DNA of 64,000 nucleotides from Micromonospora sp. NBC_01740. GTDB lineage: Bacteria > Actinomycetota > Actinomycetes > Mycobacteriales > Micromonosporaceae. The stretch lies in contig NZ_CP109150.1 in assembly GCF_035920365.1 (NCBI RefSeq), positions 4,216,001-4,280,000 on the forward strand, in the 5' to 3' direction. Every line of letters begins with the position of its first letter. Within the stretch, counting starts at the first letter, position 1. The notes beneath the pieces are model-generated. The model was not told where the DNA came from. It worked only from the letters and a program-made list of their open reading frames with translations, and did not search any database. A program made the translations under genes and the position numbers. Positions 7,977 through 23,897 of the stretch are shown here, one piece after another.

Positions 7977-9002
7977 ATGAAGAGACGACCGGATAGCGAC
8001 TCCACCGCGCAGCCCGCCCAGGCGGGGGAGGCCGCGGCTCCGGAGGTCGACGTGGCCGACGTGCGCTCGTTGCGGGTCGGCTTCTCCCCGAGACTGGACG
8101 GGATCAGCGCGAGACACGTCACGACCCTCGTCGAGCTGACCGTCGAGCTGCCACCGATCGTCGTCCAGCGGTCCTCGTTGCGGGTGGTGGACGGCATGCA
8201 CCGGCTACGGGCCGCGCGTGTGCGGGGTGACCGCCACGTGCCGGTCGTCTACTTCGACGGCTCCGACGCGGATGCCTTCGTGGCCGCGGTGCAGTTGAAC
8301 CTCGAGGACGGCCTGCCGCTGAGCGCCCGGGACCGGCTGGCCGCTGCCAAGCGGATCCTCGCCTCGCACCCGCAGTGGTCCGACCGCCGGATAGCGGCGG
8401 TGTGTGGCGTCGCCGCCAAGACCGTCGCCGGCCTGCGGCGGCGATCCCTGGACACGGGCCACCACCAGGACGTCCGGATCGGCCGGGACGGGCGCCGGCA
8501 CCCGGTCTCGACGGAAGAGGGCCGGCGGTTGGCCGAGGCGATCGTGCGTCGCGAGCCCGATGCCAGCCTGCGCGAGGTGGCGCGCCGGTCAGGCATCTCG
8601 GTCGGGACGGCTTTCGACGTCCGCCGCAAGGCGCTCGGCGGCGGCGCCTGTGTCCCGGCCGGGCAGAAGGCCCCGGCGCCGTCGCTCGCCGAGTTGGCAG
8701 CCGTCTCGTCCCCCGACGGGCTGCCGGTGACGGATCAGGATCTCGCCGCCAGCATCCGGCTACAGCTGGAGCGGCTCCGCCAGGATCCCGCGCTGCGCTA
8801 CACGGACCACGGCAAGGCCCTGCTCCGGCTGCTCACCGGGACGCTCGCCTTCATCTCGCAGTCGTCGAACACCGCTGGCAACGTTCCCGCGCATTGCCAC
8901 GAGTCGCTTCGGGCTGTCGCCCAGGCCTGCGCGGGGGGCTGGTACCAATTCAGCCAGATGCTGCCCGAGGAGCGCAGACGGCACCGGACGGTCGGGCGTT
9001 GA
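7977..9002 (+). CDS. ParB/StrR-like transcriptional regulator of cluster A
   Basis: About 341 residues. The N-terminal ParB-like domain contains VRSLRVGFSPRLDGISARH, the conserved VVDGMHRLRAARVRG box and VVYFDGSDADAFVAAV, followed by DRLAAAKRILASHPQWSDR. Two helix-turn-helix segments follow: RRIAAVCGVAAKTVAGLRR and LREVARRSGISVGTAFDVRR. This layout is that of StrR-type pathway-specific activators of antibiotic clusters. I chose ATG 7977 (protein begins MKRRPDSDS) because a purine-rich gaggga lies just ahead; the frame stays open 28 codons upstream. It is strongly paralogous to the gene at 50222 (identical 16-residue VVYFDGSDADAFVAAV block). It directly precedes the biosynthetic operon and probably activates it. 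Confidence 0.85.
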   Translation: MKRRPDSDSTAQPAQAGEAAAPEVDVADVRSLRVGFSPRLDGISARHVTTLVELTVELPPIVVQRSSLRVVDGMHRLRAARVRGDRHVPVVYFDGSDADAFVAAVQLNLEDGLPLSARDRLAAAKRILASHPQWSDRRIAAVCGVAAKTVAGLRRRSLDTGHHQDVRIGRDGRRHPVSTEEGRRLAEAIVRREPDASLREVARRSGISVGTAFDVRRKALGGGACVPAGQKAPAPSLAELAAVSSPDGLPVTDQDLAASIRLQLERLRQDPALRYTDHGKALLRLLTGTLAFISQSSNTAGNVPAHCHESLRAVAQACAGGWYQFSQMLPEERRRHRTVGR

Positions 9003-10553: not shown

Positions 10554-10577
10554 CGGTGTCCGGGGAGTTGCTAATCT
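10550..10577 (+). promoter_or_regulatory. Candidate promoter for the rest of cluster A
   Basis: TTGACG at 10550-10555 and TAATCT at 10572-10577 are 16 bases apart, a good match to a vegetative sigma-70-type promoter. It begins at the stop of the first adenylation gene and would start a transcript about 50 bases before the next gene, whose ribosome-binding site is gatgagga. Confidence 0.55.
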
Positions 10578-10633
10578 GCCGATCTTGAATCTGGCCTCCG
10601 GTAGGTGACCACTGCTGCTGGGATGAGGACCGT

Positions 10634-12298
10634 ATGTCGTCGCGACCCACCCGCCTTGAGGCGGTCGATCTCGACACCGCTGTCCATCCCCTGCTGCCGG
10701 GCCAGCTCGCGCACCACCGCGCCCTGTGGGGGACGGCGGAGCAGGGCGTGGCAGTCTGGATGTCCTACCAGGTCACCGGCCCGCTGGACGTCGCCGCATT
10801 CGTCGGCGCGGTGCGCTCGACGGTCGCCCGGCACGCGGCGCTGCGGATCGGTGTCACGACGCTCGACGGTGAACCTGTCCAGTGGGTGCGGCCGATGCCC
10901 GACGATCGCCGGCTCGTGGCGATGACCCAGGTCACGGCGAACGACACCGAGCAGTTCACCCGCTACGTGCGCTCCGTCCTCGCGGCGGACATCCGGCGCC
11001 CCTTCGACCTCGCGGTCGAGTACCCGTTCGTGCTGCGGTTGCTGCGGTTCACTCCGACTCTGCACGCCGTGCTCGGGGTGTTCTCCAACTACGCCGTGGA
11101 CGCCACCGCCCGGATGATCGTCGTACGCGACCTGTGGGGGGCCTACTTCGGCGGCGGGACCGACGCCGACCCCGTGGACGCCGACTACCTCGCCGCGGTG
11201 ACCGGCCAGGCCGCCGCCGCCGACTCGGCGCGCGCCCAGGCGGTGTCCGCGTACTGGCGGCAGCGTGGCCCCTGGCTGCCGCCCCGGTGTCAGTTTCTTC
11301 CGGGGCTCGGCGGGCCGTCCGCGAGCGTCGCCCACACCGAGCTGCTGACCCTGGTCGAGGACGAGTGGAAGGACGTGCGCGAGCGCTGGCAGGCCGCCGG
11401 CTTCAGCACCGTCCAGTGGCTCCTCACGTTGTTCGCGGCCGCCGTGTTCCAGCTGACGCCGCAGGACCGCCTCGTCGTCTCGATGAAGCTGAACGGCAGG
11501 CGTCACGCCGACCAGGGCGTCGTCGGCATGTTCGACGTCGTCGTGCCGGTCGTGCTGGACCGGCCGGACCGGCCCGCCGACCTGCTGGTGCAGGTGCGGC
11601 GGGAGCTGTTGTCGGCGACCTCGCGCCGCACCGTCACGCGGCAGGCGTTGGACGACATGTGGGCGACGGCGGTCCGACGCCTGGGCCGTCCGGTCCACGA
11701 CACCCTGTCGATGACGTACCTGGAGGACACCGCCGACCGCGACGACGCCGACGGCGGCGCGATCGCCATCGAGCGCGGCGCGTACACCCCGACGTTGGTC
11801 AGGACCGCCGACGGCCTGCGGATCGCCGCGAACGAGCGGCCCAACGGGCTGGGCGTCCGGCTGACCGTCGACGGCGAGACCATGTCGCAGGCCACCTTCA
11901 CCAGGTTCGTCGCCGCCTTCCGCGCACTGCTGGCCGGAGACGACCCGGCCAGCGCCGCGCCGGCGACGGAGAGCGGCCCCGGGCTCACGCCACTTCGCGC
12001 ACCCGACGGTGCGGTCGTGCTGGTCGTCGACCTGGCCGAGGTGACCTCGGTCCTCGACTCGCACCCCGCGGTCGCCTCCGCCAGGATCTCGGTGGAGGTC
12101 GCCGAGGACGGCGGATCGCGACTCGCCGCCGAGGTGACGCCCGCCGACGCCGGAGTCACGGCGGACGATCTCGCCAGCCACGTCCGTTCCCACGTCGCCG
12201 GCCGGCCGTTCCTGGCGGTCCCGGTGCGCATCGCGGTGGTGTCCGGCACCCCCGACGACGAACGGTCCGAGGAGCTATTCATGGATGGAGTTGGTTGA
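10634..12298 (+). CDS. Condensation-domain-like protein with degenerate active site
   Basis: 554 residues. The first 440 or so have the shape of an NRPS condensation domain: a LLPGQLAHHRALW opening, the RHAALRIGV motif near residue 66-74, a later latch region VSMKLNGRRHADQGVVGMFD, and a bridging region. The catalytic HHxxxDG box is replaced by SNYAVDA at residues 151-157, so both histidines are gone while the Asp stays. The last 100 residues (VVDLAEVTSVLDSHPAVASA and onward) look like the small C-terminal subdomain of an adenylation enzyme, giving an unusual fusion. It may be a non-catalytic scaffold, or use another mechanism with the transglutaminase-like protein supplying amide formation. 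The next gene, a carrier protein, starts two bases after its stop. Confidence 0.75.
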   Translation: MSSRPTRLEAVDLDTAVHPLLPGQLAHHRALWGTAEQGVAVWMSYQVTGPLDVAAFVGAVRSTVARHAALRIGVTTLDGEPVQWVRPMPDDRRLVAMTQVTANDTEQFTRYVRSVLAADIRRPFDLAVEYPFVLRLLRFTPTLHAVLGVFSNYAVDATARMIVVRDLWGAYFGGGTDADPVDADYLAAVTGQAAAADSARAQAVSAYWRQRGPWLPPRCQFLPGLGGPSASVAHTELLTLVEDEWKDVRERWQAAGFSTVQWLLTLFAAAVFQLTPQDRLVVSMKLNGRRHADQGVVGMFDVVVPVVLDRPDRPADLLVQVRRELLSATSRRTVTRQALDDMWATAVRRLGRPVHDTLSMTYLEDTADRDDADGGAIAIERGAYTPTLVRTADGLRIAANERPNGLGVRLTVDGETMSQATFTRFVAAFRALLAGDDPASAAPATESGPGLTPLRAPDGAVVLVVDLAEVTSVLDSHPAVASARISVEVAEDGGSRLAAEVTPADAGVTADDLASHVRSHVAGRPFLAVPVRIAVVSGTPDDERSEELFMDGVG

Positions 12299-12300
12299 GC

Positions 12301-12567: not shown

Positions 12568-12570
12568 GCC

Positions 12571-13770
12571 ATGCCCGTGACTATCCATGCCGATCCGCTG
12601 GCGCAGCGGATCGTCCGGCTGCGAGAGGCGGTCGCGGCGACCGGCCTGCGCCACCTCGCGGTCGAGGTGGCCTCCGGGCCGGATCTCGTGGTCGCACTGC
12701 GTGCGCTCCGCCCGCTCGACGCGTCCGTGGTCGTGGTGGGTCCGACCGTCACCGCGTCGGCGCTGGCGGAGCTGCGCCCGCAGGCCGTGCTGAACGTCGC
12801 GAGCGGGCGGATCCGGCCTACCGAGGAGGGCAGCCGGCCCTCCGGCGCAGGGCAGGGCGGGCTGTGGATCTTCTCGTCGGGCACCACGGGTACCCCGACC
12901 CCGACCTACTGGCCCTGGCCGGAGCTGACCCGCGGCGCCGACTGGGACACCGCGCACCGTGACGAGAGGTGGGGGATCGGCTACGCACCCTTCACCTACG
13001 CCGGGGTGGAGGCCGTGAGCCAGGCGTTGGGCCGGGCTGCCAGCATCGACTTCCTCACCCCGACCGACCTGGCCGTCGGGACGGGCGCACGCTACGACGT
13101 CGTCGCCGGCACCCCGTCGTTCTGGCGGATGGCGGCGCTGCACCGGGGGACCGACGAGGCCCGACCGCAGGTGCACACCGTCTCGATGGGCGGCGAGCCG
13201 GTGGACGCCCAGCTGCTACGGCTGATCGAGTCGGCGTTCGCGCCGCAACGCGTCCTGCAGTTCTACGCCAGCACCGAGCTGGGCCGGATCGCCACCGTCT
13301 CCGACGGGCTGCCGGGCCTGCCGCTCTCCGTCCTCGACGGGTACGGGCCGACCGGGAAGGCGCTGACGGTGCGTGACGGCGAGCTGCTCCTGTCCCCGGC
13401 GCCCGGCGCACCGTACCTGCCGACGGGGGACGAGGCGGCGATCCACGGTGGGCGCCTGCACATCCTCGGGCGACGCGGCGAGGTCATCAACGTGGGTGGG
13501 GTGAAGGTCGTGCCCGGCCACGTGGCCCGGCTGCTGCGGGAACTCCCGGACGTCGTCGCGGTCCGCGTCTACCCGGTGCGCAGCAGCGTGCTCGGCGCCG
13601 TCGTCGGCGCCGACGTCGTCACGCCGCCGGGCGCCGACCGTGACCTGGTCGTGCAGCGGGTCAAGGCCCATGCCCGCCGCGTACTGGCCCCGGCGGAACA
13701 ACCGCGTCGCGTCACCGTCGTCGACCAGCTTCCGACGGCACCGTCCGGAAAGGCGGCCCGCGGTGAGTGA
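12571..13770 (+). CDS. Adenylation enzyme 2, short and divergent
   Basis: A 399-residue AMP-binding protein, roughly 100 residues shorter than normal because the N-terminal subdomain is reduced. The P-loop is IFSSGTTGTPTPTY, which lacks the usual Lys-Gly. The acceptor motif YASTELGRIA, the YLPTGDEAAI turn and a C-terminal LPTAPSGKAAR with the catalytic lysine are retained, so adenylation is plausible. It starts three bases after carrier protein 1 and its end overlaps the SDR gene by eight bases. Pairing with carrier 1 is the simplest reading. It could instead be a ligase for an unusual small acid. Specificity is not readable. Confidence 0.75.
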   Translation: MPVTIHADPLAQRIVRLREAVAATGLRHLAVEVASGPDLVVALRALRPLDASVVVVGPTVTASALAELRPQAVLNVASGRIRPTEEGSRPSGAGQGGLWIFSSGTTGTPTPTYWPWPELTRGADWDTAHRDERWGIGYAPFTYAGVEAVSQALGRAASIDFLTPTDLAVGTGARYDVVAGTPSFWRMAALHRGTDEARPQVHTVSMGGEPVDAQLLRLIESAFAPQRVLQFYASTELGRIATVSDGLPGLPLSVLDGYGPTGKALTVRDGELLLSPAPGAPYLPTGDEAAIHGGRLHILGRRGEVINVGGVKVVPGHVARLLRELPDVVAVRVYPVRSSVLGAVVGADVVTPPGADRDLVVQRVKAHARRVLAPAEQPRRVTVVDQLPTAPSGKAARGE

Positions 13771-14491
13771 GGCACTCGGGACGGTGTTCGTCACCGGCGG
13801 TACCCGGGGTATCGGGCTGGCTGTCACCCGGCAGCTGCTGACCGTCGGTTACCGGGTGGTCGCCGTGGCACGGACCGCTCCCAGCGAGTTCGCGGCCCTG
13901 CGGGAGTCCGTCGGTGACCCGCTGACGTTCCTCGCCGCCGACCTCACCAGCGGCGACGATCGGCTCGCGGTGGCCAACCGGCTCCGGGAGTGCGCCGATC
14001 TCCACGGTCTCGTCAACAACGCGGGGGTGGCGAGCGCGGCTCTGCACGTGGCCGCCGCACGGTCGGACATGACCCGGATGTGGCAGCTCAACGTCGAGGT
14101 CCCGATGTCCCTGTCCCAGGCGGCGGTCAAGGCGATGTACCGCCGTGGCGGACGCATCGTCAACATCACCTCGATCGCGGCCCATCGGACCTTCCGTGGG
14201 CTCGGCGCGTACACCGCGACCAAGTGCGCTCTGGAAGGGTTCTCGAGGGTGCTCGCCGCCGAGGTCGGCAGCCGGGGCATCACGGTCAACTGCGTCGCAC
14301 CGGGCTTCATCGACACCGCCATGACCGCATCGATCGAGGACGGCCTCCGCGCCGCGATCAATCGACGGAACATGCTCAACCGGGCCGCCACCGTCGCCGA
14401 CGTGGCGCGGTCGGTCGAGTTCCTGCTCTCACCCGCCGCGGAGGCCATCACCGCGCAGGTGCTCCGGGTCGACTCGGGCAGCGGCGGATGA
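13763..14491 (+). CDS. Short-chain dehydrogenase/reductase (FabG-like)
   Basis: 242 residues from a GTG that overlaps the previous stop. The nucleotide-binding TGGTRGIGLAV, the NNAG motif, and the catalytic Ser-Tyr-Lys set (ITSIAAHRTFRGLGAYTATK) are all present, with VAPGFIDTAMT in the substrate loop as in 3-oxoacyl-ACP reductases. It should reduce a ketone or oxidise an alcohol with NADP(H), perhaps on a carrier-bound intermediate. It overlaps the exporter gene by four bases (ATGA). Position between carrier-protein genes and the exporter argues for a tailoring step rather than primary metabolism. Confidence 0.85.
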   Translation: MSEALGTVFVTGGTRGIGLAVTRQLLTVGYRVVAVARTAPSEFAALRESVGDPLTFLAADLTSGDDRLAVANRLRECADLHGLVNNAGVASAALHVAAARSDMTRMWQLNVEVPMSLSQAAVKAMYRRGGRIVNITSIAAHRTFRGLGAYTATKCALEGFSRVLAAEVGSRGITVNCVAPGFIDTAMTASIEDGLRAAINRRNMLNRAATVADVARSVEFLLSPAAEAITAQVLRVDSGSGG

Positions 14492-16866
14492 GCACGCTGG
14501 ACAAGACCGGGCAGGCGGAACAGGCCCCCCGGCCGCCGGAGGCGACGAGCCTACCGACGGAGTTCACCGACCGACGGCAGCGCTTCCGGCGCGAGGCGTT
14601 GCGTCACCACGGCGTCAACCGGGATACCGGCGACGCGGTGGAGCTCGGCTGGCGGGCGCTACCCGGCCTGGCCGCGTTGCGCAGCCTGCGGTGGCGCAAC
14701 GTGCGGGCCGCGCTGCGGGTCTCGCGCACCCGGGTTCCGGTCGTGCTCCAGTCGCAGATGAGCGAGTGTGGGGCTGCCGCGCTGGCGATGGTCCTCGCCT
14801 ACTTCGGTCAACCGGTCCCCCTCGACGAGTTGCGCACCGAGACCAACACGGGCCGGGACGGGGTCGCGGCCCGCGCGATGCTCGCTGCCGCGCGGCGGCG
14901 CGGCCTGGTCGCGCGCGGAGTCCGGGTCTCCATCGAAGGGCTGCGCAACCTCCCCCCGGCGACCATCCTCTTCTGGAACTTCATCCACTTCGTCGTGTTG
15001 GAGCGGGTGACCGACACCCACCTGTACATCGTCGATCCGGCCTTCGGCCGGCGTAAGGTCAGCCTGGCCGAGGCCGGCAAGGCGTTCACCGGTGTGGCGC
15101 TGGAGTTCCATCCACCGGTCGGCGCCACGACGTCGCGGCGAGGGGCCGACGCCCGGAACCTCGGCGCGAGCCGCCTGCCGTACCTGTCGAAGTTCTTCCC
15201 GCGTACGGCCGCCTGGGTTCCTCTCGCGCTGACCTCGGTCGCGCTGACCCTGTGCGGCCTGGCGGTGCCGGCCGCCTCCACCTACGTCGTGCACCGGGCG
15301 GGCCAGCCCGGCGAACCGGTCAGCGCCTGGCTGCTGTTCGGGGCGGCGGTCGTGCTGTTCGCGATGTACTTCTGGATGCAGACCGTCCGTCGGCTGGCCC
15401 TGCTGTCCGTGCAGACTCTCGCCGACAAGTCGGTGACCCTCGGAGCGGTCCACCACCTCGTCGCCCTGCCGTTCGACTACTTCGCCCAGCGCCACACCGG
15501 CGACCTCTCCATGCGGGTCCGCACCAGCAACGCGGTCCGTCAGATCCTGACGGGATCCGCGCTGTCGGCCGTGCTCGACGGGGTGCTGGTGCTCGTGTAC
15601 GGCGGGCTCATCGTCGTCGCGGACCGGCGTCTCGGCGCGCTGGTGCTCACCCTCGCCGTCGCCCAGCTCGCTCTGCTCGCGTTCAGCTGGCGCAAGCAGG
15701 AATACCTGACCGCGGCGTTGTTGGAGGCGCAGGCGAAGAGCCACACCGAGCTGTTCCAGTTGCTGGACAGCGTGCCGACGCTGAAGGCCTCCGGGCTGGA
15801 GGGCGCCGCGGCGGAGACCTGGAGCCACACGTTCGTCGCCGAGGTGAACGCCAGGACCCGCAGCCGGCGGTTCCTCGGCGTGTGCGAGGCCGTCAGCACC
15901 GCGATCCAGTTCCTCGCTCCGCTCGCCGTGCTCGCCGCCGGTCTGGTCCTGCTCGGTCGCGGCGAGATCTCCCTGTCCCGGGTGGTGGGCTTCTCCGCCC
16001 TGGCCATGGGAATGTTCGTACCGCTGGCGAGTCTGGTGCAGACCGGGCTGGAGGTCGCCGGCCTGAGGGCCACGTTGACCCGGCTCGCCGACATCCTGGA
16101 CGCGCGACCGGAGGCCGGCCCGGACGCGGTGGTGCCGTCCCGCGTCACCGGCGCCATCACGCTCGACGACGTGCGGTTCGCCTATCCGGGCGCGCGGACG
16201 CCGGCGCTCGTGGACGTCAACGCACAGATCGAGCCCGGGCAGTTCACTCTCATCCTCGGTGAGTCCGGCTCCGGCAAGTCGACGCTCGCCATGCTGCTGG
16301 CGGGGCTCTACCTGCCCAGCGCCGGCACGGTGTCCCTCGACGGCACGCCGACGGATCAGCTGGACCGGCCGGCCGCGCGGCGGTCGATGGCGTACGTCCG
16401 GCAGGACGCCCGGCTGTTCGGCGGGACCATCCGGGAGAACATCGCGCTCGGCCGGCCGGAGTGCTCCCTGGAGGACGTCATCGCCGCTGCCCGGCTGGCC
16501 GAGGTCCACGACGACATCGACGCGATGCCGATGCGGTACGAGACGCTGCTCGGCAGTTCCGGGACGGGCCTGTCCGGTGGGCAGATCCAACGCATCTCCC
16601 TGGCGCGGGCCCTGCTGCGGAACTCCGAGCTGCTGATCCTCGACGAGGCGACCAGCGCCCTCGACCGGCTCACGGAGGACCGCATCATGGCCAACCTGCG
16701 CCGGACCGGGCGCTCGCTGGTGGTCGTCGCCCACCGCCTCTCCCATCCCGAGGCCGCCGACCAGATCCTCGTCATGAGCGACGGCAGGCTCGTCCAGCGT
16801 GGCCGCCACGAGGACCTGATGGCCGAGGACGGTCTGTACCGGCGCCTCGTGGGAGGTGCCTCGTGA
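14488..16866 (+). CDS. C39 peptidase-containing ABC exporter (PCAT)
   Basis: 792 residues with three parts. After a basic 75-residue extension, a C39 cysteine peptidase domain carries Cys94 (QMSECGAAAL), His168 (FIHFVV) and Asp183 (IVDPAFG), the full triad. Six membrane helices follow (about 230-480), then an ATPase with Walker A GESGSGKST near 591, the signature LSGGQIQR and Walker B LLILDEATSALD. Such proteins cut a precursor peptide after a double-glycine-type leader and export the rest. That function matches the two leaders at 23609 and 23758, which end in VVGA and VVGG. Finding this exporter inside a carrier-protein operon is the key link between the enzymes and the tiny peptides. Starts at ATGA overlap with the SDR. 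Confidence 0.92.
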   Translation: MSTLDKTGQAEQAPRPPEATSLPTEFTDRRQRFRREALRHHGVNRDTGDAVELGWRALPGLAALRSLRWRNVRAALRVSRTRVPVVLQSQMSECGAAALAMVLAYFGQPVPLDELRTETNTGRDGVAARAMLAAARRRGLVARGVRVSIEGLRNLPPATILFWNFIHFVVLERVTDTHLYIVDPAFGRRKVSLAEAGKAFTGVALEFHPPVGATTSRRGADARNLGASRLPYLSKFFPRTAAWVPLALTSVALTLCGLAVPAASTYVVHRAGQPGEPVSAWLLFGAAVVLFAMYFWMQTVRRLALLSVQTLADKSVTLGAVHHLVALPFDYFAQRHTGDLSMRVRTSNAVRQILTGSALSAVLDGVLVLVYGGLIVVADRRLGALVLTLAVAQLALLAFSWRKQEYLTAALLEAQAKSHTELFQLLDSVPTLKASGLEGAAAETWSHTFVAEVNARTRSRRFLGVCEAVSTAIQFLAPLAVLAAGLVLLGRGEISLSRVVGFSALAMGMFVPLASLVQTGLEVAGLRATLTRLADILDARPEAGPDAVVPSRVTGAITLDDVRFAYPGARTPALVDVNAQIEPGQFTLILGESGSGKSTLAMLLAGLYLPSAGTVSLDGTPTDQLDRPAARRSMAYVRQDARLFGGTIRENIALGRPECSLEDVIAAARLAEVHDDIDAMPMRYETLLGSSGTGLSGGQIQRISLARALLRNSELLILDEATSALDRLTEDRIMANLRRTGRSLVVVAHRLSHPEAADQILVMSDGRLVQRGRHEDLMAEDGLYRRLVGGAS

Positions 16867-17774
16867 CAGCCGAGCGTTGGCTCGACCGGCAGGCGCTCGA
16901 CGCCCTGCTGCCGCTGATCCTGCAGGTGCCGCACTCGCATCGGCGCTTCGAGATGGACGCCGCCACGGCCGCCGCCGAGTACCAGATCGACGGGCCGGGC
17001 CTCGACGTCCTCGTCGCCGCCGGTCTGCCCTCGGCGGCCGGCGCGGACGGCCTCCTGTTCGACGCCACCGACCTGCGCAACGTCTCGGTGCACCTGGACC
17101 CGCGCTCGCGCGGGCGCAAGGTCCTCTCCTGGTGGATCCGCGAGCTGGGGCGCCCCACCGCCCACGCCCGCTACCGGATGGACTACGTGGCGCAGTGCCC
17201 GGAGCCCGGGCACGACGAGCCGTGCCGGTGGCGCCTCGCGGTGCCGGACGACGCCTGGCACGAGACGACGTCGGCACAGGACCGGGGCGGCGTGCTGCAC
17301 TCGGTGACGTTCGACCGGCCGCGGACCTGGCCGGAACTGCCGACCGCGGTGCTCGACCTGCTGGCGGAGACCCGGCACATCCGGTTCCTCTGGCTGCCGG
17401 AGACGTTGCGCGCCGACAGCGCCTTCGTCCGTGACACCGGGATCGGCGACTGCGTCGGCGTGGCCCACCTGCTGGTCGAGGAGGCCCGCAGGCGGGGACT
17501 GACCGCCCGGTTCTCCTTCGGCAGGTCGCTGACCCCACCGATCTCCGCATCGCACTCGTGGGCGGAGTTCCAGGTCGACGGGGTCTGGGTCCCGGTCGAC
17601 CCGGTGCTCCTGGACGCCCTGGGGCAGTGGGGCATGGCCGGGCCAGAGTGGCAGCGCGACCGCTCGCTCGGTGCCATTCTCGGCCGCGTCGGACCCAGCT
17701 GGCGCGACCTGGTGACGCATGCCGGTCAGCCGGTTTTCGCGAGATTCCCAACCTACCGCGACACGGGAGGGTGA
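16863..17774 (+). CDS. Transglutaminase-like protein, possible amide synthase
   Basis: 303 residues. The transglutaminase-core triad is intact: Cys197 in GIGDCVGVAHLL, His231 in SASHSWAEF and Asp246 in VPVDPVLLD. The N-terminal half is family-specific, with a YRMDYVAQCPEPGHDEPC segment. Transglutaminase homologues in natural-product clusters can form amides between carrier-bound acyl groups, as AdmF does in andrimid biosynthesis, or act as peptidases. With two carrier proteins, several adenylation enzymes and a condensation domain lacking its histidines, a role as the amide-forming enzyme is a reasonable inference. Its GTG start overlaps the exporter stop by four bases and a carrier protein follows directly. 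Confidence 0.8.
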   Translation: MTAERWLDRQALDALLPLILQVPHSHRRFEMDAATAAAEYQIDGPGLDVLVAAGLPSAAGADGLLFDATDLRNVSVHLDPRSRGRKVLSWWIRELGRPTAHARYRMDYVAQCPEPGHDEPCRWRLAVPDDAWHETTSAQDRGGVLHSVTFDRPRTWPELPTAVLDLLAETRHIRFLWLPETLRADSAFVRDTGIGDCVGVAHLLVEEARRRGLTARFSFGRSLTPPISASHSWAEFQVDGVWVPVDPVLLDALGQWGMAGPEWQRDRSLGAILGRVGPSWRDLVTHAGQPVFARFPTYRDTGG

Positions 17775-17775
17775 C

Positions 17776-18018
17776 ATGGTGGATTGGCCACCCGCCTTTG
17801 AACCACTCATTCGGGAGCGCAGTCGGCTGCTCAGTGCCGACTCGCCCCTGGAGCCTGACCAGAGCCTGACCGAGCTCGGTGTCGACTCGCTGGAAGTGGT
17901 CGAGTTGATCGTCAACCTGGAGACCGAGTTCGACATCGAGATCCCACCCGAGCTGTTGCAGCCGGAGGTCTTCGCGACTCCGGGCACCATCTGGAACGCG
18001 GTCAGGAGCCTGATGTGA
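17776..18018 (+). CDS. Acyl/peptidyl carrier protein 2
   Basis: 80 residues. The start ATG at 17776 follows gggagg at 17765-17770 and the transglutaminase stop by one base. The phosphopantetheine site is LGVDSLEVVELIVNLETEF, and the protein ends with the usual TIWNAVRSL helix. It clearly differs from carrier 1. Position next to the diiron oxygenase and adenylation enzyme 3 suggests that enzyme 3 loads it and the oxygenase acts on the tethered group. The diiron oxygenase start codon overlaps its stop. Confidence 0.9.
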   Translation: MVDWPPAFEPLIRERSRLLSADSPLEPDQSLTELGVDSLEVVELIVNLETEFDIEIPPELLQPEVFATPGTIWNAVRSLM

Positions 18019-18926
18019 CCGGCCCCGTCGAGGAGAGACACGCGGACATGCACCAGTCGTGGGAGCGGCTCACCACGGTCGCCGCCAGGTTGAGCGACCA
18101 GGCGCGGGACCAGCGCTACCACGTCTTCGACATCTTCGACTGGCCGGCGGAACTGCCGACGGACCAGTTCTGGATGAGCCCGGAGTTGACGACGTGCTAC
18201 GGCACCGCGGTGTGGGACCGCCTGTCGGATGCCGAACGGGTGCGCCTGACCCAGGCCGAGGCGGTGAACTTCTTCAGTCTCAACGTCCACCTCATCCGCG
18301 AGCTGATCGGCGAGGTGGCCGGGCGGATCTACGACACGCGGTACCCGGGCCTGTCGGAGTTCTTCCACGACTTCATCCACGAAGAGAACGAACACATGTG
18401 GTTCTTCGCCCAGTTCTGCCAGCGGTACGGGGGGAAGGTCTACAAGACCAAGCGCGTCGCCGGCACCGCGATCGAGGGTGGCCCCGCCATCCGTGACCTC
18501 GTCATCTTCGGTCGCATCCTCATCGCGGAGGAGCTGTGCGACTACTACAACGCGAAGATGGCGACCGACGGCCGGCTGCCGCACATCGCGCAGCAGATCA
18601 ACGCCGTCCACCACCAGGACGAGTCGCGACACATCGCCTTCGGTCGGCAGATGATGCGGGCGCTGTACGAGGAGGCGAAGCAGAGCGCGACGCCGGAGGA
18701 GATGGCGGGAGCCGGGACGTACCTGTCCCGCTACGTCAGCTCGTGCCTGCGGGCGTTCTACCACCCCGAGGTGTACGCGGACGCCGCCCTTCCCGAGGCC
18801 AGGCGGATCCGCGCCGAGGTGCTCGGCGACCAGTACCGTCAGGAGTTCCATCGGACCGTGATGCACAAGACCACCCGCTTCTTCGACCGGTTGGGGCTCT
18901 TCACGGAAGACACGGTGGCCTGGTGA
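18015..18926 (+). CDS. AurF-family diiron oxygenase
   Basis: 303 residues, all-helical, with two metal-binding repeats: Glu124-x-x-His127 in HEENEHMWFF and Glu203-x-x-His206 in HHQDESRHIAF, plus ligand candidates around EAVNFF (residue 82), IAEELCDYY (172-173) and His199. This is the pattern of AurF/CmlI-like ferritin-fold oxygenases, which oxidise amines to hydroxylamine, nitroso or nitro groups or hydroxylate carbons. I use GTG 18015 because it overlaps the carrier protein stop; ATG at 18048 is an alternative. Next to a carrier protein and an adenylation enzyme, an oxidation of a tethered amino acid is the likely job. Confidence 0.85.
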   Translation: MTGPVEERHADMHQSWERLTTVAARLSDQARDQRYHVFDIFDWPAELPTDQFWMSPELTTCYGTAVWDRLSDAERVRLTQAEAVNFFSLNVHLIRELIGEVAGRIYDTRYPGLSEFFHDFIHEENEHMWFFAQFCQRYGGKVYKTKRVAGTAIEGGPAIRDLVIFGRILIAEELCDYYNAKMATDGRLPHIAQQINAVHHQDESRHIAFGRQMMRALYEEAKQSATPEEMAGAGTYLSRYVSSCLRAFYHPEVYADAALPEARRIRAEVLGDQYRQEFHRTVMHKTTRFFDRLGLFTEDTVAW

Positions 18927-20425
18927 CCGGTCAGCTGCCACGACGTCTGCTGCACGAGTGGTTCATCGCCGGCCTGGCGACGGCGCCGGACCGGGTCGCG
19001 CTGCGGATCGGTCGCCAGGAGTGGACGTACACGGAGCTGGACCAGGTGGCCCGGCGCTGGGCCGGCGGGCTGGTCGCGTGCGGGGCGCGGAGCGTCGGCA
19101 TCCTCGCGGTGCGCAGCATCGAGTCGTACGCCGGGCTCCTCGCCACGCTCTACGCCGGCGCGACGGCGGTGCCGCTCAGCCCGGGCTTCCCCGCCGCGCG
19201 TACCTGCCGGATGGCGGCGCAGGCCGGCGTCGACACGCTGATCGTCGACCGGTCGGGGGCGGCGGCGCTCGCGCACCTCACGGCGGCCCTGCCCGGCCTC
19301 ACCGTGGCGGCGCAGGCCGCGACGCCGCTGGACGCCCTGCCCCGGGCCGGCTACGACGACGTGGCGTACGTGCTGTTCACCTCTGGCTCCACCGGCCGGC
19401 CCAAGGGCGCGGCGATCACGCACGCCAACATGGACAGCTTCCTGCGGTACAACCTCGACCGTTACGACCTCGGCCCGGGCGACGTGTGCTCGCAGACCTT
19501 CGACCAGACCTTCGACCTGGCGATGTTCGACCTCTTCGTGGCCTGGGGCGCGGGTGCCACCGTGGTGTCCACACCGCCGCAGGTGTTCACCGCGCTGCCG
19601 GAGTTCCTGGCCGCCGAGCGGGTGACGTTCTGGTTCTCCGTGCCCAGCGCCATCGCTCTGGTGCGGCGCCGGGGCGGGCTGACTCCCCGCTCGATGCCGA
19701 CGCTGCGGTGGAGCCTCTTCTGCGGTGAGGCGCTGCGCATGACGGATGCCGAGGACTGGCAGCGGGCGGCGGCCGGATCGGTGGTGGAGAACCTGTACGG
19801 CCCGACCGAGCTGACCATCGCCTGCTCCGCGCACCGGTTGTCCGAGGACTCGGCCGACCTCGCCGTGCACGGCGTCGTCCCCATCGGCGCGCCGTACCCG
19901 CATCTCAGATACCGCATCGTCGAGGACGGCGTCGATGGCACCGAGGGCGAGCTGTGCGTGACCGGGCAGCAGATGTTCCCCGGGTATCTCGATCCGGCCG
20001 ACGACGAGGGCCGCTTCCACGACGGCGACTCGGTGCGCTGGTACCGCACCGGCGACCGGGTCCGGGAGTGCGCCGGCGGTGAACTCGTCTATCTCGGTCG
20101 GGTCGACCGGCAGGTGAAGGTCCGCGGCTACCGGGTCGAGCTGGACGAGCTGGAGTGGCACGTCGGGCAGTTGCCGGGGGTGGAACGGGCCGTCGCGGTG
20201 GCGTTCGAGGCGTCCGGGCGGACGGAGCTGGCGGTATTCTACGTCGGCACCCCGGGCGTGGACATCCGTCGCCCGATGTCCTCGATCCTGCCGGGATACA
20301 TGGTTCCGCTGCTGTGCCGCGACATCGACGCGTTCCCGCACACGGCGAACGGCAAGATCGACCGTGGGGTGCTCGCCGCACGGGCCCGGGACCTCGTGGC
20401 CGGCGGACAGGTCACCCATGCGTGA
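18923..20425 (+). CDS. Adenylation enzyme 3 (full NRPS-type A domain)
   Basis: 500 residues from a GTG overlapping the oxygenase stop (GTGA). It has the most canonical adenylation motifs of the three: LFTSGSTGRPKGAAITH, the NLYGPTELTIAC motif, WYRTGDRV, YLGRVDRQVKVRGYRVELDE and the terminal ANGKIDR with its catalytic lysine. The active-site region (FDQTFDLAMFDLFVAWGAG) lines a pocket but I do not assign a substrate. Complete NRPS-style motifs argue for an amino acid substrate. The adjacent carrier protein 2 is the likely acceptor. Its stop overlaps the E1-alpha start by eight bases. Confidence 0.88.
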   Translation: MTGQLPRRLLHEWFIAGLATAPDRVALRIGRQEWTYTELDQVARRWAGGLVACGARSVGILAVRSIESYAGLLATLYAGATAVPLSPGFPAARTCRMAAQAGVDTLIVDRSGAAALAHLTAALPGLTVAAQAATPLDALPRAGYDDVAYVLFTSGSTGRPKGAAITHANMDSFLRYNLDRYDLGPGDVCSQTFDQTFDLAMFDLFVAWGAGATVVSTPPQVFTALPEFLAAERVTFWFSVPSAIALVRRRGGLTPRSMPTLRWSLFCGEALRMTDAEDWQRAAAGSVVENLYGPTELTIACSAHRLSEDSADLAVHGVVPIGAPYPHLRYRIVEDGVDGTEGELCVTGQQMFPGYLDPADDEGRFHDGDSVRWYRTGDRVRECAGGELVYLGRVDRQVKVRGYRVELDELEWHVGQLPGVERAVAVAFEASGRTELAVFYVGTPGVDIRRPMSSILPGYMVPLLCRDIDAFPHTANGKIDRGVLAARARDLVAGGQVTHA

Positions 20426-21326
20426 GAGCCGGCTGCGCCCGCTGGCCGACTCCACCCTCGGGGCGATGCTGTCCATCCGACGCTTCGAGTACGCGGTCCT
20501 CGACCTGCTCGGCCGGGGACTGATCCCGGGCACCAGCCACACCTGCCTCGGCCAGGAGTACGTCCCGGTCGTGGTCGAGTCCCTGCTGCGCCCCGATGAC
20601 GAGGTGTTCAGCAACCACCGGGGACACGGCCACTTCCTGGCGCGGTACGACGATCCGGCGGGGCTGCTCGCCGAGCTCGCCGGCCGTGAGGGCGCGTTGT
20701 GCGGCGGGATGGGCGGTTCGCAGCACATCCGCCGCCCGGGCTTCATGTCCACCGGCATCCAGGGGCAACTGGTGCCGGTCGCGGTGGGCACCGCCTTCGA
20801 CATGCGGCGCACCGGAACGAACTCGATCTCCGTGGTGTACGTCGGGGACGGCACCTGGGGCGAGGGGGTGGTGTACGAGGCGCTCAACCTCGCCGCGCTC
20901 TGGCGGGTGCCGATGGTCGTCGTCGTCGAACACAACGGGATCGCCCAGTCCACCCCGACCTCGGCACAGATGGCCGGTAGCGTCGCCGACCGCTGTGCCG
21001 CCTTCGGCATCCGCCACGTCGAGGTGACCGGCATCGACGTCGACGCCATCCGGGCCAGCCTGGCGCCGCTCGTCGCCGCCGTACGTCACGACGGGTCTCC
21101 GTTGGTGGTCGAGTTCGACACGGTGCGGCTCGGCCCGCACAGCAAGGGCGACGACACCCGCACGCCGGCGGAGCTCGAGGCCCTCGCCGGGCGTGACTGG
21201 TACCCGTACTACCGTGCGGCGTTCCCGGAGCAGGTCGACCGCCTGGACGCGGCGGCGACCGGGAAGATCCGCGACGTGGTCGAGTCGGTACTCGCCCGAC
21301 CGCTGATCGGCGCCGGTCATGGCTGA
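20418..21326 (+). CDS. 2-oxoacid dehydrogenase E1 alpha-like subunit
   Basis: 302 residues. The thiamine-diphosphate site is clear: SNHRGHGHFLAR, GGMGGSQHI, and the metal-binding GDGTWGEGVVYEALNLAAL with the closing EHNGIAQSTP loop. E1 decarboxylates a 2-oxoacid and passes the acyl group to lipoyl-E2. It is coupled on both sides (overlaps of eight bases with adenylation enzyme 3 and E1-beta). Being embedded in a biosynthetic operon suggests supply or transfer of a special acyl group, or an acyloin-type condensation, rather than central metabolism. The protein is slightly short compared with pyruvate dehydrogenase alpha subunits. Confidence 0.88.
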   Translation: MRESRLRPLADSTLGAMLSIRRFEYAVLDLLGRGLIPGTSHTCLGQEYVPVVVESLLRPDDEVFSNHRGHGHFLARYDDPAGLLAELAGREGALCGGMGGSQHIRRPGFMSTGIQGQLVPVAVGTAFDMRRTGTNSISVVYVGDGTWGEGVVYEALNLAALWRVPMVVVVEHNGIAQSTPTSAQMAGSVADRCAAFGIRHVEVTGIDVDAIRASLAPLVAAVRHDGSPLVVEFDTVRLGPHSKGDDTRTPAELEALAGRDWYPYYRAAFPEQVDRLDAAATGKIRDVVESVLARPLIGAGHG

Positions 21327-22341
21327 GCCGGGGACCGAGCGGGTCGGGGAGGGCCTCAACCGTGCCCTGGCGACCCTGCTCGCGGAGAGGCCGGATCTCC
21401 ATCTGATCGGCGAGGACATGGCCGACCCGTACGGCGGCGCCTTCGGCGTCACCCGCGGGCTGTCCACCGGGTATCCCGAACGTGTCCTCAGCACTCCGAT
21501 CAGCGAGCAGGCGATCGTGGGCTTCGCGGTCGGCCTGGCCCTGCGGGGCCGGGAGGCGGTGGTCGAGGTGATGTTCTCCGACTTCGCCACCCTGTGCTTC
21601 GACCAGATCGTCAACCTGGCCAGCAAGGCCGTCACGATGTACGGCGAACCGGTGCGGATGCCGCTGGTGGTCCGGTGCCCGACGGGGGGCAACCGCGGAT
21701 ACGGGCCCACCCACAGCCAGAGCCTGCAGAAGCACTTCGTGGGCGTGCCCAACCTCGCCGTGCACGAGCTGAGCCCGGTGCACGACGCGCACGCCACACT
21801 GGCCCGCATCCTCGACTCGGGGGCTCCCGCGATGTACTTCGAGGACAAGGTGCTCTACGGCCGTCGACGGTTCGGCGCGGCGGCCGGAGACGAGCTGTTC
21901 CACTGCGAGCGGATCGGTGGCGCCTGCGACTTCGCCGTGTTGGGCGTGCGCGGGGTCGACCGGGCCGACGTCGTGGTCATCGCACCGGGCGGCCTCACCG
22001 ACAGGGTGCTCGGCGGAATGCGGGGTGCCTATCTGAGTGACGAGATCGCGGTGCGTGCGGTGGTGCCGTCGCGGCTCTATCCGTTCGACCCCGCGCCGCT
22101 GGCTGCTCTGGTCGCCGGGGCCGGACGGGTGGTGGTCGTCGAGGACGCGACGGCCGGCGGCACGTGGGGGGCCGAGGTGGCTCACACCATCCACCAGCAG
22201 ATGTGGGACCTGCTGTCCCAGCCCGTCCGGCTGCTCCACGCGCCGCCAAGCACCATCCCCGCCGCACCCCACCTCGAGCGTGCGGTACTGGTCCAGGCGG
22301 ACGACATCCGCGCCGTGGTGACGGCGGTCGCCGGTGGGTGA
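21319..22341 (+). CDS. 2-oxoacid dehydrogenase E1 beta-like subunit
   Basis: 340 residues, the partner of the preceding gene. Typical stretches are LIGEDMADPYGGAFGVTRGL, STPISEQAIVGFAVGLALRG, VEVMFSDFATLCFDQIVN, and the phosphate-loop region RCPTGGNRGYGPTHSQSLQ. The C-terminal transketolase-like half is present. Together with E1-alpha it makes the ThDP-dependent heterotetramer. It has overlaps of eight bases with both neighbours, so the three genes are translated in step, which suits a stoichiometric complex. The native 2-oxoacid cannot be inferred by eye. Confidence 0.9.
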   Translation: MAEPGTERVGEGLNRALATLLAERPDLHLIGEDMADPYGGAFGVTRGLSTGYPERVLSTPISEQAIVGFAVGLALRGREAVVEVMFSDFATLCFDQIVNLASKAVTMYGEPVRMPLVVRCPTGGNRGYGPTHSQSLQKHFVGVPNLAVHELSPVHDAHATLARILDSGAPAMYFEDKVLYGRRRFGAAAGDELFHCERIGGACDFAVLGVRGVDRADVVVIAPGGLTDRVLGGMRGAYLSDEIAVRAVVPSRLYPFDPAPLAALVAGAGRVVVVEDATAGGTWGAEVAHTIHQQMWDLLSQPVRLLHAPPSTIPAAPHLERAVLVQADDIRAVVTAVAGG

Positions 22342-23407
22342 CATCCGGCTGCCGCGGCTCAACGCGACCGACGAGGAGTACACGCTCATCGAGTGGCTGG
22401 TCGGCGACGGGGCGCCGGTCGAGGCGGGCACCGCGGTAGCTCTGGTGGAGACCTCCAAGGCGGCGCACGAACTCGTCGCGGACGACGCCGGCATCCTGTG
22501 GCAGCGGACGTCCGCACCGTCGACCTGCCGCCCCGGGGAGGTGGTGGCGACCGTCGGCGGGGACGACCGCCCGCCACCGGTGCGGCAGGCTTGCGATGCG
22601 GATCCGATCACCATCACCGAGCCGGCCCGGCGGCTGATGGCCGAACACGGTGTGGCGGAGGCGGACGTACGGTCGATCGGCAAGCCGGTCATCGCGCGGT
22701 CGGACATCGAACAGCTGGTCGCCGGGCAGGCGCCGCCGGCCACGGCCGAGCGGGTGACCGTGTCCGCGGCCCAGCGACGGGTCGCCCGTACGGTGTCCGC
22801 CTCGCACCGCGAGATCCCCGCCGCGTACACGGTCGTCAAGGTGGTCGCCGATCGACTGAAACAACGCCTGCGTGCCGAGGCGGCGACCATCGGCTTCGTC
22901 GGCATCCCGGAGCTGGTGGTCGAGGCGATCGCGGCGCGGCGGGCGGAGTTCCCGCTGTGCTTCGCGCGAGCGGAGGGCGATCAGGCGGCGACGGTTCGGC
23001 CGGGAGCGCACGTCGGTGTCACCATCGACGTCGGGAGGGGCCTCTACCTGCCGGTCGTCGCCGACGCCGACACCCGGCCGCTGCGGGACGTCGCCGCCGA
23101 CCTGTTGCGGTTCCGTCGCGCCGCCGTGCGCGGGGAATTCGCCGAGGCGGATCTGGCCGGGTCGAACATCGCGCTCACGATACATACGGACGCGGACGTC
23201 GTGCATGCGCAGCCGCTCATCTTCCCGGAACACACATGCGCGGTCTCTCTCGCCTCGATGCAGCGCGAGTTGGTGCTTCAGAATGATGGCTCGGTCACCA
23301 CCAGTGACTATTTCCATCTGGGTTTGGCATATGACCATCGTTTTGTCAACGGTCGGTCGGCGGTGGCGTTCCTGCGCGCGGTCAAGGCCGATCTGGAGGC
23401 GGGTTGA
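22334..23407 (+). CDS. Lipoyl-bearing acyltransferase (E2-like)
   Basis: 357 residues from GTG. A single N-terminal lipoyl domain carries the target lysine at residue 42 (VETSKAAHEL). A peripheral subunit-binding domain follows (ITEPARRLMAEHGVAEADV), then a C-terminal acyltransferase domain. The active-site motif is YDHRFVNGR near residue 333-341: His335 is kept, but the usual Asp of HRxxDG is Asn339. That Asn also occurs in some E2 relatives, so activity is not excluded. No E3 (dihydrolipoamide dehydrogenase) gene is in the window, so E3 would come from elsewhere. In this setting the enzyme may transfer an acyl group to a carrier protein thiol instead of to CoA. Confidence 0.85.
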   Translation: MGDIRLPRLNATDEEYTLIEWLVGDGAPVEAGTAVALVETSKAAHELVADDAGILWQRTSAPSTCRPGEVVATVGGDDRPPPVRQACDADPITITEPARRLMAEHGVAEADVRSIGKPVIARSDIEQLVAGQAPPATAERVTVSAAQRRVARTVSASHREIPAAYTVVKVVADRLKQRLRAEAATIGFVGIPELVVEAIAARRAEFPLCFARAEGDQAATVRPGAHVGVTIDVGRGLYLPVVADADTRPLRDVAADLLRFRRAAVRGEFAEADLAGSNIALTIHTDADVVHAQPLIFPEHTCAVSLASMQRELVLQNDGSVTTSDYFHLGLAYDHRFVNGRSAVAFLRAVKADLEAG

Positions 23408-23414
23408 TAGCCCT

Positions 23415-23449
23415 CTGACAGTTGTCAGTTGAACGCGACCAACGCGACA
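23415..23449. promoter_or_regulatory. Palindrome plus 9-base tandem repeat before the peptide genes
   Basis: CTGACA (23415-23420) and TGTCAG (23423-23428) form a palindrome eight bases after the E2 stop. The tandem pair aacgcgacc / aacgcgaca follows at 23432-23449. They mark the switch from the enzyme operon to the peptide genes and may be an operator or processing site. I see no good -10 element after them. Confidence 0.35.
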
Positions 23450-23477
23450 TCGCCCGTGGACATGACGGAGGTATCCT

Positions 23478-23534
23478 ATGGCCCCCAGCCCGCTATGGAA
23501 GGGCTGTCGATCCGTGTGGAACCTGTGGACTTGA
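23478..23534 (+). CDS. Possible 18-residue Trp-rich peptide
   Basis: A very small frame encodes MAPSPLWKGCRSVWNLWT. Its support is an excellent ribosome-binding site, GGAGG at 23467-23471, six bases before the ATG, and its place between the E2 gene and the two leader peptides. Three of 18 residues are tryptophan and there is one Cys. It has no resemblance to the leaders downstream. It may be a regulatory (attenuation-type) leader peptide, a third product peptide, or chance. An overlapping 41-codon frame from 23462 lacks a ribosome-binding site, so I prefer this one. Confidence 0.35.
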   Translation: MAPSPLWKGCRSVWNLWT

Positions 23535-23564
23535 GTCCGCCGCCACGGCTTGCGGATCGAACCC

Positions 23565-23840
23565 GTCGGGTGGACAAGGACCGATGATGCGGAAAGGGGT
23601 GAACCAACATGACCGAGGTGACTTTCGAGGCTGTCGACATCCGTGAGATGGCCGACGAGGAGCTGGACGATGTGGTGGGCGCGGCCCGCTGCATGTGATT
23701 CGTCCGACCAACTGGTCGGGTGCAGTGACCGATGATGCGGGGAGGGGGTGAATCAACATGATCGAGGTGACTTTCGAGGCTGTCGACATCCGTGAGATGG
23801 CCGACGACGAGCTGGACGACGTCGTCGGCGGCCCGATGGC
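23565..23840 (+). repeat. Tandem duplication carrying the two leader peptides
   Basis: Two copies of about 125 bases (23565-23690 and 23715-23840) match from gtcgggtg through the ribosome-binding region and the whole leader, up to the codons before the core. The copies are offset by 149 bases in the coding part, with one base of length difference upstream of the ATG. Similarity drops sharply at the last codons, so the two units keep promoter-proximal and leader sequence but carry different cores. Confidence 0.85.
23609..23698 (+). CDS. Precursor peptide 1, double-glycine-type leader with core ARCM
   Basis: 29 residues: leader MTEVTFEAVDIREMADEELD followed by DVVGA, then ARCM. The ribosome-binding region is ggaaaggggtg. 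The acidic amphipathic leader with EELDDVVG-Ala is the classic signal cut by C39 peptidases, and the operon encodes such a peptidase-exporter. Only four residues remain after the predicted cut, far shorter than usual bacteriocin or lanthipeptide cores. The core has one Cys. Twenty-two of the 25 leader residues are identical to peptide 2. The TGA stop is followed by an open frame of 11 codons, but I see no reason to read through. The product may be a modified tetrapeptide, or the leader may serve as a scaffold for enzymatic additions. Confidence 0.85.
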   Translation: MTEVTFEAVDIREMADEELDDVVGAARCM

Positions 23841-23850
23841 CTGCCAGTAA
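23758..23850 (+). CDS. Precursor peptide 2, double-glycine leader with core PMACQ
   Basis: 30 residues: leader MIEVTFEAVDIREMADDELD followed by DVVGG, then PMACQ. The ribosome-binding site is ggggaggggg, stronger than that of peptide 1. The GG site is canonical for C39 cleavage, which would release a pentapeptide with one Cys. The leader differs from peptide 1 only at positions 2, 17 and 25, while the cores share nothing but a Cys. Conserved leader with divergent core is the mark of ribosomal natural-product precursors. A strong hairpin starts at the base after the stop, so this gene ends the transcript. Confidence 0.87.
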   Translation: MIEVTFEAVDIREMADDELDDVVGGPMACQ

Positions 23851-23897
23851 GGCGGCAGGAGGCGCTTGGGCACCTCGCTCAGGCGCCTCCGTCCGCC
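23851..23897 (+). terminator. Hairpin terminator of the cluster A operon
   Basis: An inner stem pairs 23858-23865 (ggaggcgc) with 23883-23890 (gcgcctcc), and an outer stem pairs 23851-23855 (ggcgg) with 23893-23897 (ccgcc). It begins directly after the stop of peptide 2. The bases caggaggcgcttgggc (23856-23871) are identical to those at 2776-2791 in the terminator at 2777-2812. Confidence 0.8.

Follow-up and report, generated by a model that had tools for sequence, protein, structure and literature searches.

A candidate hybrid of ribosomal mini-peptides and carrier-protein chemistry, linked to a C39 exporter, in Micromonospora sp. NBC_01740

The operon and its tandem precursors

We have analysed a window of 64,000 nucleotides from the 7.3 Mb, one-contig genome of Micromonospora sp. 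NBC_01740 (NZ_CP109150.1, positions 4,216,001 to 4,280,000). It holds an operon with two tandem genes for precursor peptides (A and B), a C39 peptidase-ATP-binding cassette (ABC) exporter, a stand-alone carrier protein, three adenylating enzymes (A1, A2 and A3) and a stand-alone, degenerate condensation-domain protein, here called C-like (Table 1). A first-pass annotation, made from the sequence alone, had placed the operon at 14488-23850; the conserved unit is 7893-23850, and the genes left outside were those for a StrR/ParB-like regulator, the VinN-like ligase A1, the C-like protein, the short AMP-ligase A2 and a short-chain dehydrogenase (SDR). The C-like protein, overlooked there, is the constant partner of the precursors.

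The two tandem open reading frames (ORFs) were already in that annotation, and their coordinates and translations stand, as does the identity of 22 of the 25 leader residues of A and B. Each gene is preceded by a purine-rich, Shine-Dalgarno-like stretch, and the duplicated unit extends into the upstream sequence, the ribosome-binding region included. Among 160 genomes of the genus, a precursor was found at E≤0.001 in four: the window's own, G979 (a close species, locus L077), and G168 and G261 (loci L025 and L027). Chance ORFs are ruled out by orthologues and profile matches; in particular, A and B cannot be chance ORFs because the near-identical operon of G979 (95-100% protein identity) encodes both peptides unchanged. 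G168 and G261 keep the whole operon, from regulator to precursor, with gene order unchanged and proteins 63-83% identical. These two genomes have a single precursor each, with core PNACQ, so that PxACQ looks like the older core of the window lineage and ARCM like a divergent second copy. Between the window and L025, 65 of 75 bases of the leader DNA agree; over the 150 bases upstream of the leader, 101 of 168 columns match (60%, against a shuffled mean of 51%). The comparison of precursor B with that of L025 (31 codons including the stop) yields 6 synonymous and 8 non-synonymous differences, with dN 0.11 and dS 0.38 (Nei-Gojobori, stop left out), values that, for few sites, suggest mild constraint.

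Table 1. Features of the operon, with positions in the window.
Feature	Position	Strand	Basis and remarks
StrR/ParB-like transcriptional regulator	7893..9002	+	HTH_23; weak parB_part; same place in L025/L027; first start codon taken, true start may be later; the StrR name is our assumption
A1, VinN-type adenylation enzyme	9039..10553	+	best PDB match 3wvn, E 4.4e-110; ECKR stretch in common
Condensation-like protein (C-like)	10634..12298	+	PF00668; SNYAVDA for HHxxxDG; C-terminal extension
A2, short AMP-ligase, 399 aa	12571..13770	+	PF00501, little of its N-terminal part
Short-chain dehydrogenase	13763..14491	+	GTG start assumed; 81% in L025/L027
C39 peptidase-ABC exporter	14488..16866	+	Cys94/His167/Asp183, Walker A, LSGGQ, LDEATS
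Transglutaminase-like protein	16863..17774	+	PF01841, scanned within longer frame
Stand-alone carrier protein	17776..18018	+	PF00550 (slightly longer frame); DSLE phosphopantetheine site
AurF-family diiron oxygenase-like protein	18015..18926	+	PF11583, E 4.8e-38
A3, VinM-type adenylation enzyme	18923..20425	+	best PDB matches 8k4r, E 7.6e-131, and 6akd, E 3.4e-127
2-oxoacid dehydrogenase E1 alpha-like	20418..21326	+	scanned in longer frame
2-oxoacid dehydrogenase E1 beta-like	21319..22341	+	domain scan
2-oxoacid dehydrogenase E2-like, with lipoyl domain	22334..23407	+	domain scan
Precursor A	23609..23698	+	leader of 25 aa ending GA, core ARCM: MTEVTFEAVDIREMADEELDDVVGA followed by ARCM; identical in G979
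Precursor B	23758..23850	+	leader of 25 aa ending GG, core PMACQ: MIEVTFEAVDIREMADDELDDVVGG followed by PMACQ; identical in G979
GC-rich hairpin, possible operon end	23858..23890	+	by eye; no T-run, not flagged by terminator scan

A precursor family with one invariant cysteine

Members of the precursor family were found by searching with the leader and then with growing profiles in overlapping sets of genomes: 397 of the order, 394 of the class, 354 of the family, the 160 of the genus, 150 Streptomycetaceae (the family of G751; Streptacidiphilus is among the names), 60 relatives of Actinocrispum and 31 relatives of G1126; in the order, class and family searches at most the best 20-22 candidates were scored per genome. 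The family comprises 11 distinct precursors of full length and a twelfth truncated by the end of its contig, and spans Micromonosporaceae, Pseudonocardiaceae and Streptomycetaceae. The absence of leader homologues near C39 exporters elsewhere had been named beforehand as grounds for giving up the prediction; such homologues exist. Besides the cores of the genus, we recovered TGTLSLCVTC in Actinocrispum wychmicini (Pseudonocardiaceae), SAVVPNGCI in Actinoplanes sp. N902-109 (G190) and AAGRCVM in G751. The 150 Streptomycetaceae contributed QFSIAAHCVI, QFAIAAHCVI (again in G1197), TLPVNAHCVS, HGVHVDKACI and SAAPSGVLCLTSCL, together with the truncated precursor, NALVARPARCVS. Near the latter, in the first 180 bases of locus L096 (G1137:C306, reverse strand), a stretch DELADVVGGHAMAAQSVVNCITML follows the precursor with no visible leader start; it is perhaps a decayed tandem copy.

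The counts leave out the matches at E 5e-4 to 0.05 in 6 of 8 genomes of the order search and 9 of 11 of the class search, 13 of these 15 lying in frames of 270-1159 aa, and also G1192 (639-aa frame) in the search among relatives of Actinocrispum. In L066, a left-out match in a 118-aa frame, no leader was seen among ORFs up to 80 aa. L069 (G942:C86, 70-aa frame) holds a longer, generic Gly-Gly (GG) peptide with an unrelated core, near the end of a C39-ABC-like gene of another genus.

The leaders conform to the rule described for peptides of C39 transporters, which asks for hydrophobic residues at positions -4, -7, -12 and -15 and also allows Gly-Ala (GA) at the cleavage site (PMC7018657). All 11 distinct full leaders are hydrophobic at these four positions and likewise at -3; residue -2 is Gly in each, as is -1 in ten of them, precursor A having Ala there. 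With the truncated precursor included, GG precedes the core in 11 of 12 rows, GA (which, like GS, would also count as a site) occurring in precursor A. The catalytic Cys, His and Asp of the C39 domain are kept in 10 of 10 exporters checked; for the window exporter the first-pass annotation had Cys94 and Asp183 right and placed the His one residue too far, at 168 instead of 167. The window exporter scores below the cut-off of the NCBIfam model NHLM_micro_ABC1 (567.5 versus 853.3 bits). Given the leader rule and an exporter in the same operon or cluster, these peptides are probably substrates of C39 exporters, as had been proposed.

Cores are 4-14 residues long; the shortness that had been remarked on is real in the window, but it is the extreme of this range. 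The Cys that the two window cores share proves to be the one invariant core residue of the family: it is found in 12 of 12 cores (the truncated one included), the last Cys standing 0-2 residues from the C-terminus. Side-chain amines are scarce, as only 1 of the 12 cores contains Lys, and the C-terminal residues differ (Q, M, C, I, S, L). Two-Cys cores occur at two loci only, those of Actinocrispum and G1075b, and at both the precursor adjoins a gene for a flavoprotein that resembles both DepH and the PDB 4ntd protein, found in these two alone among the window and 20 loci searched. We take 4ntd to be HlmI and the DepH-like flavoproteins to be dithiol oxidases; a disulfide in the product, and thus functional thiols, fits this arrangement.

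A condensation-like protein accompanies the precursor

The strongest support for a hybrid pathway comes from the co-occurrence of precursor and C-like protein, together with the minimal operon described below. In the 150 Streptomycetaceae genomes, a precursor (E≤0.005) and a C-like protein scoring above 300 bits are found in exactly the same five: G751, G1075 (with two C-like proteins, at loci G1075a and G1075b), G1108, G1126 and G1137. The other 16 condensation-domain matches in this set, for which the best 11 of up to 156 first-look candidates were scored per genome, reach 142-156 bits and lie in frames of 1828-4439 aa; with that depth of scoring, some C-like genes may have escaped. The C-like gene adjoins the precursor or is one gene off in Actinocrispum, G751, G190, G1126, G1075a and G1075b; G1108 has two precursors, one so placed and the other about 25 kb off on the same contig.

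A database search with the C-like protein, over the best 7998 candidates by shared words, gave at least 58 proteins at E≤1e-20, mostly from the genera Streptomyces and Kitasatospora and including two that are larger and multidomain; contigs were examined for few of these matches. In a tree built from 85 rows, with duplicates and three short rows removed, a branch with support 100/100 separates 69 C-like rows from 16 other condensation domains; the C-like rows split into 15 on the side of the window and 54, with long branches. At the place of the active-site motif HHxxxDG the window protein has SNYAVDA; most family members have xNxxxDG, with Arg as the next residue. In an alignment with 74 C-like rows, several of them duplicates and thus not all independent, the second His is kept in 4 (Actinocrispum, G1075b, G1137 and P0011), the first His in 1, and DHxxxDS is seen in none, whereas HH is present in 13 of the 13 condensation domains of nonribosomal peptide synthetases (NRPS) included. 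A pairing of single-Cys cores with His-less C-like proteins was considered and rejected: the second His is kept at the two-Cys loci, but also in G1137, which has a one-Cys core. An AlphaFold model of the Actinoplanes homologue (mean predicted local distance difference test score 84.2) shows an intact condensation fold, and its top Foldseek matches are condensation domains and the P450-recruiting X-domain. The role of the second His of HHxxxDG is itself debated (PMC11546977). The C-like protein may be a catalyst that uses a different acceptor, most obviously a thiol, or may serve for docking only.

The minimal operon and the accessory enzymes

The smallest version of the system is seen in Actinoplanes sp. 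N902-109 (locus L079, about 11748-18132), with genes for the precursor, the C39-ABC exporter, the C-like protein, a carrier protein of 78 aa, an AMP-ligase (acyl ligase) and a JmjC_2 protein. G1075a and G1126 show the order precursor, C39-ABC, C-like, carrier protein, ligase (the G1126 contig stops inside the ligase gene), and G1108 (Streptomyces sp. TLI_235) has the same genes split over two places; a JmjC protein is encoded in G190, G1075a and G1108. The AMP-ligase gene of G1108 (L095:4922-6267) has a frame break and appears as two frames in this draft assembly. A carrier protein is present in 7 of 8 distinct clusters with at least 14 kb of sequence, weakly in G751. The carrier protein noted at the outset is thus found in most of the family; the diiron, transglutaminase-like and E1/E2 proteins that had been listed beside it are absent from the minimal operon; judged by these gene sets, they are accessory. 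The C-like protein of the minimal operon has one carrier-bound substrate in sight, and the peptide would therefore be its natural second one.

The window, by comparison, carries a richer set of enzymes. We take the best structural match of A1 (3wvn) to be VinN, and those of A3 (8k4r and 6akd) to be VinM and IdnL7. A1 is predicted to load an aspartate-type beta-amino acid via its side-chain carboxylate, and A3 is probably specific for a small amino acid, of the amide-forming type. In vicenistatin biosynthesis, VinN and VinM load a 3-methylaspartate unit on one carrier protein, with an Ala, Ser or Gly cap added after decarboxylation (PMC11284099), and the VinN-type enzyme AfcQ uses Asp (PMC12186527). 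The operon proteins scanned include no decarboxylase or polyketide synthase (PKS). The best match of A2 among nine ligases compared is an Actinocrispum ligase, at 28%. Solved structures offer little guidance for two further proteins: the transglutaminase-like protein had 0 matches in the structure search, and the AurF-like protein has no close solved relative, with weak R2-like and ferritin matches. A literature search on AdmF returned nothing on point.

These enzymes recur elsewhere in differing combinations. The carrier/AurF-like/A3 block is also found in Actinocrispum at 55-58%, A1 in G1075b at 49% and in L031 at 47% (with no precursor found in the L031 cluster), and the transglutaminase-like, carrier and E1/E2 proteins in L029. 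Such recurrence suggests that the carrier-built unit is modular, and that precursor, exporter and C-like protein form the constant core. The unit of G751 is probably different, as other enzyme genes stand ahead of its ligase and precursor (L072:12604-15959: HAD phosphatase-like, SDR, nucleotidyltransferase-like and PhyH-like, two of the four names resting on a reading of the sequence). The transglutaminase-like gene was tried as a marker of the system and rejected: of 300 genomes in the family, 18 (the window's own among them) have a homologue, and of the loci opened, in which leaders were sought by pattern among ATG-started ORFs of 20-75 aa, only two orthologous operons of the same genus contain a leader. 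In G190, one of the genomes with such a homologue, the precursor lies 3.2 Mb away from that gene. The transglutaminase-like gene is thus a marker of carrier-protein blocks, not of the precursor family. L029-L040 are clusters of the family with transglutaminase-like genes; most also encode a stand-alone carrier, and some encode adenylation enzymes or StrR-like regulators. No GG precursor was found in them by the same pattern; in L031, 20 kb contain three transglutaminase-like genes.

A proposed pathway and its alternatives

Overall, we consider it somewhat probable (about 0.55) that a ribosomal peptide pathway is fused here with carrier-protein (non-ribosomal) chemistry, such that the core receives a carrier-bound unit. 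What the comparison shows is a conserved set of genes, leaders that follow the rule, the motifs of the exporter and the co-occurrence; the chemical steps are inferred, above all the joining and its site. In this scheme the GG-leader precursor would first be translated. An AMP-ligase would load an acid on the stand-alone carrier protein, where it would be elaborated; in the window A1 would provide an aspartate-type unit, A3 a small amino acid, the AurF-like protein an oxidation and E1/E2 an acyl group, with the transglutaminase-like protein as a possible amide former. Once the C-like protein had brought the carrier-bound unit to the core, still on its leader, the two would be joined. The most likely place is the invariant Cys near the C-terminus, the only invariant nucleophile; taken over all readings, attachment at this Cys is doubtful. 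Finally, the C39 domain would cut after GG or GA and the ABC part would export a small conjugate.

More tentatively, and with the odds rather against it, these operons may define an undescribed product class, in which a ribosomal mini-peptide would be the acceptor for a condensation-domain homologue, the leader helix would take the place of the acceptor carrier protein, and the conjugate would be released by the C39-ABC exporter. If the acceptor is a thiol, the dispensability of the catalytic His would be accounted for. The same tentative proposal includes at least two actinobacterial branches, one with a VinN-type unit (the window) and one with an acyl ligase and a JmjC protein, and, for two-Cys cores, disulfide closure by the neighbouring dithiol-oxidase-like protein.

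Several observations weigh against the joining of unit and core. The coupling is the weakest point, as the C-like protein might be a docking factor, and a ligase, the transglutaminase-like protein or another protein the bond maker; with HHxxxDG lost in most rows, it may have no catalytic activity at all. The disposition of the genes is not uniform either: the C-like gene of the window lineage is in the same operon as the precursor and yet 11 kb upstream of it, in G1137 the two are on separate contigs, in Actinocrispum the exporter is about 28 kb away from the precursor, and no carrier protein was found in the 19.9 kb of G1075b. A dithiol-oxidase-like protein at the two-Cys loci suggests that no Cys is left there for acylation. 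Finally, the parts shared with L029 could make a separate molecule, as L029 has no GG precursor by pattern and its genome gave no match in the 354-genome precursor search.

The principal rival, which we hold unlikely, is a C-terminal extension: an AMP-ligase (A2 in the window) would adenylate the C-terminus of the core, the peptide would be held on the carrier, and the C-like protein would join a carrier-borne or free amine, making the ribosomal core the N-terminal part of a mixed peptide. It is consistent with the conserved part of the cores being their C-terminal end, with Cys 0-2 residues from it in every case. The two minimal-operon ligases aligned read YHLG where A3 reads FDLA, and Asp in the FDLA position marks adenylation domains that activate amino acids. 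Also in its favor, a known stand-alone condensation domain takes a free amine (PMC13142362). However, the C-terminal residues vary in a way unusual for one family of ligases, and A1 and A3 resemble small-amino-acid enzymes.

According to a further alternative, which appears quite unlikely, there are two products: the peptide would be an unmodified exported signal or bacteriocin, perhaps with a regulatory role, and the carrier genes would make an unrelated small molecule. GG-peptides of C39 exporters do act in communication and competition (PMC7018657), StrR-like regulators are encoded in the window lineage and in G1075b, and the core length suits signals. This is challenged by the precursor and C-like protein sharing the same five of 150 genomes, and by the dithiol-oxidase-like protein being found only beside the two two-Cys cores. 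The first-pass annotation had raised the alternative of a scaffold; as in PEARL pathways, the precursor would be reused, units added to its end would be cleaved off, and the product would retain hardly any of the core or none. This agrees with cores that are tiny and variable but for one Cys, and is made very improbable by the lack of a Pfam lantibiotic-dehydratase match among the operon proteins and by a C39 site that precedes the core, so that cleavage leaves core residues on the exported product.

Relation to known systems

In goadvionin- and lipolanthine-type lanthipeptides, a carrier-built acyl chain is joined to a ribosomal peptide by a GNAT-type acyltransferase; unlike these, the operon shows no lanthionine synthetase among the proteins scanned, and more generally no lanthipeptide enzymes or other known enzymes of ribosomally synthesized and post-translationally modified peptides by Pfam or NCBIfam. 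The TIGR04069 carrier-related peptide maturation system was also rejected (15.8 bits for the window carrier protein versus a cut-off of 70). The known GG-peptides of C39 exporters have the same leader rule, GG or GA, and a linked C39-ABC protein with a complete triad (PMC7018657); the peptides described here differ from them in cores of 4-14 residues and in the carrier protein, AMP-ligase and C-like protein alongside. The trio OaaA/OaaACP/OaaC consists of a stand-alone ligase, carrier and condensation domain that transfer an acyl group to a free acceptor (PMC13142362), and the minimal operon likewise has a separate AMP-ligase, carrier protein and condensation domain. As described there, the Oaa acceptor is a small free amine and the motif often DHxxxDS, whereas the C-like proteins mostly have xNxxxDG and come with a ribosomal precursor and an exporter. 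A1 and A3 resemble VinN and VinM, and one stand-alone carrier is used as in VinN/VinM/VinL and in AfcQ/AfcK of AFC-BC11 (PMC11284099, PMC12186527); unlike vicenistatin-type assembly, the operon proteins scanned include no PKS, pyridoxal phosphate-dependent decarboxylase or dipeptidyltransferase, and a precursor and C39 exporter are present. PEARL pathways likewise combine a ribosomal-type enzyme with NRPS parts (PMC11212132), with the difference that the operon is without a lantibiotic-dehydratase-like protein by Pfam. We found no description of the gene set in the literature searched by title and opening of the abstract, and among the papers listed for one such query none contains the phrase 'standalone condensation domain', a weak absence given that subscription journals and most preprints fall outside that scope.

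If the core and the carrier-borne unit do share one molecule, ribosomal and non-ribosomal synthesis would meet in a pathway of five or six genes, and the gene-encoded half of the product could be changed by mutation. The C-like family would then be a member of the condensation superfamily that acts on a leader peptide, of which none turned up in the same literature, and would test the purpose of the HHxxxDG histidine. As precursor genes of about 90-130 bp can escape annotation, clusters of this kind may pass for stray pieces of NRPS genes; a way to find them is offered by the leader profile together with the C-like family.

Flanking features

No RNA element in the window matched Rfam at gathering score. 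The precursor of L025 is likewise followed by a GC-rich hairpin, of other bases (by eye). The gene for a CmcI-type methyltransferase at 24141-24821 was rejected as a member of the operon, as it sits past the hairpin and has no match in L025, L026 or L027; its protein is identical in G979. On the other side, two genes for APH-family phosphotransferases (5630-7358, strand -), also found in G979, adjoin the regulator; a possible role of the pair is resistance, or it may be unrelated.

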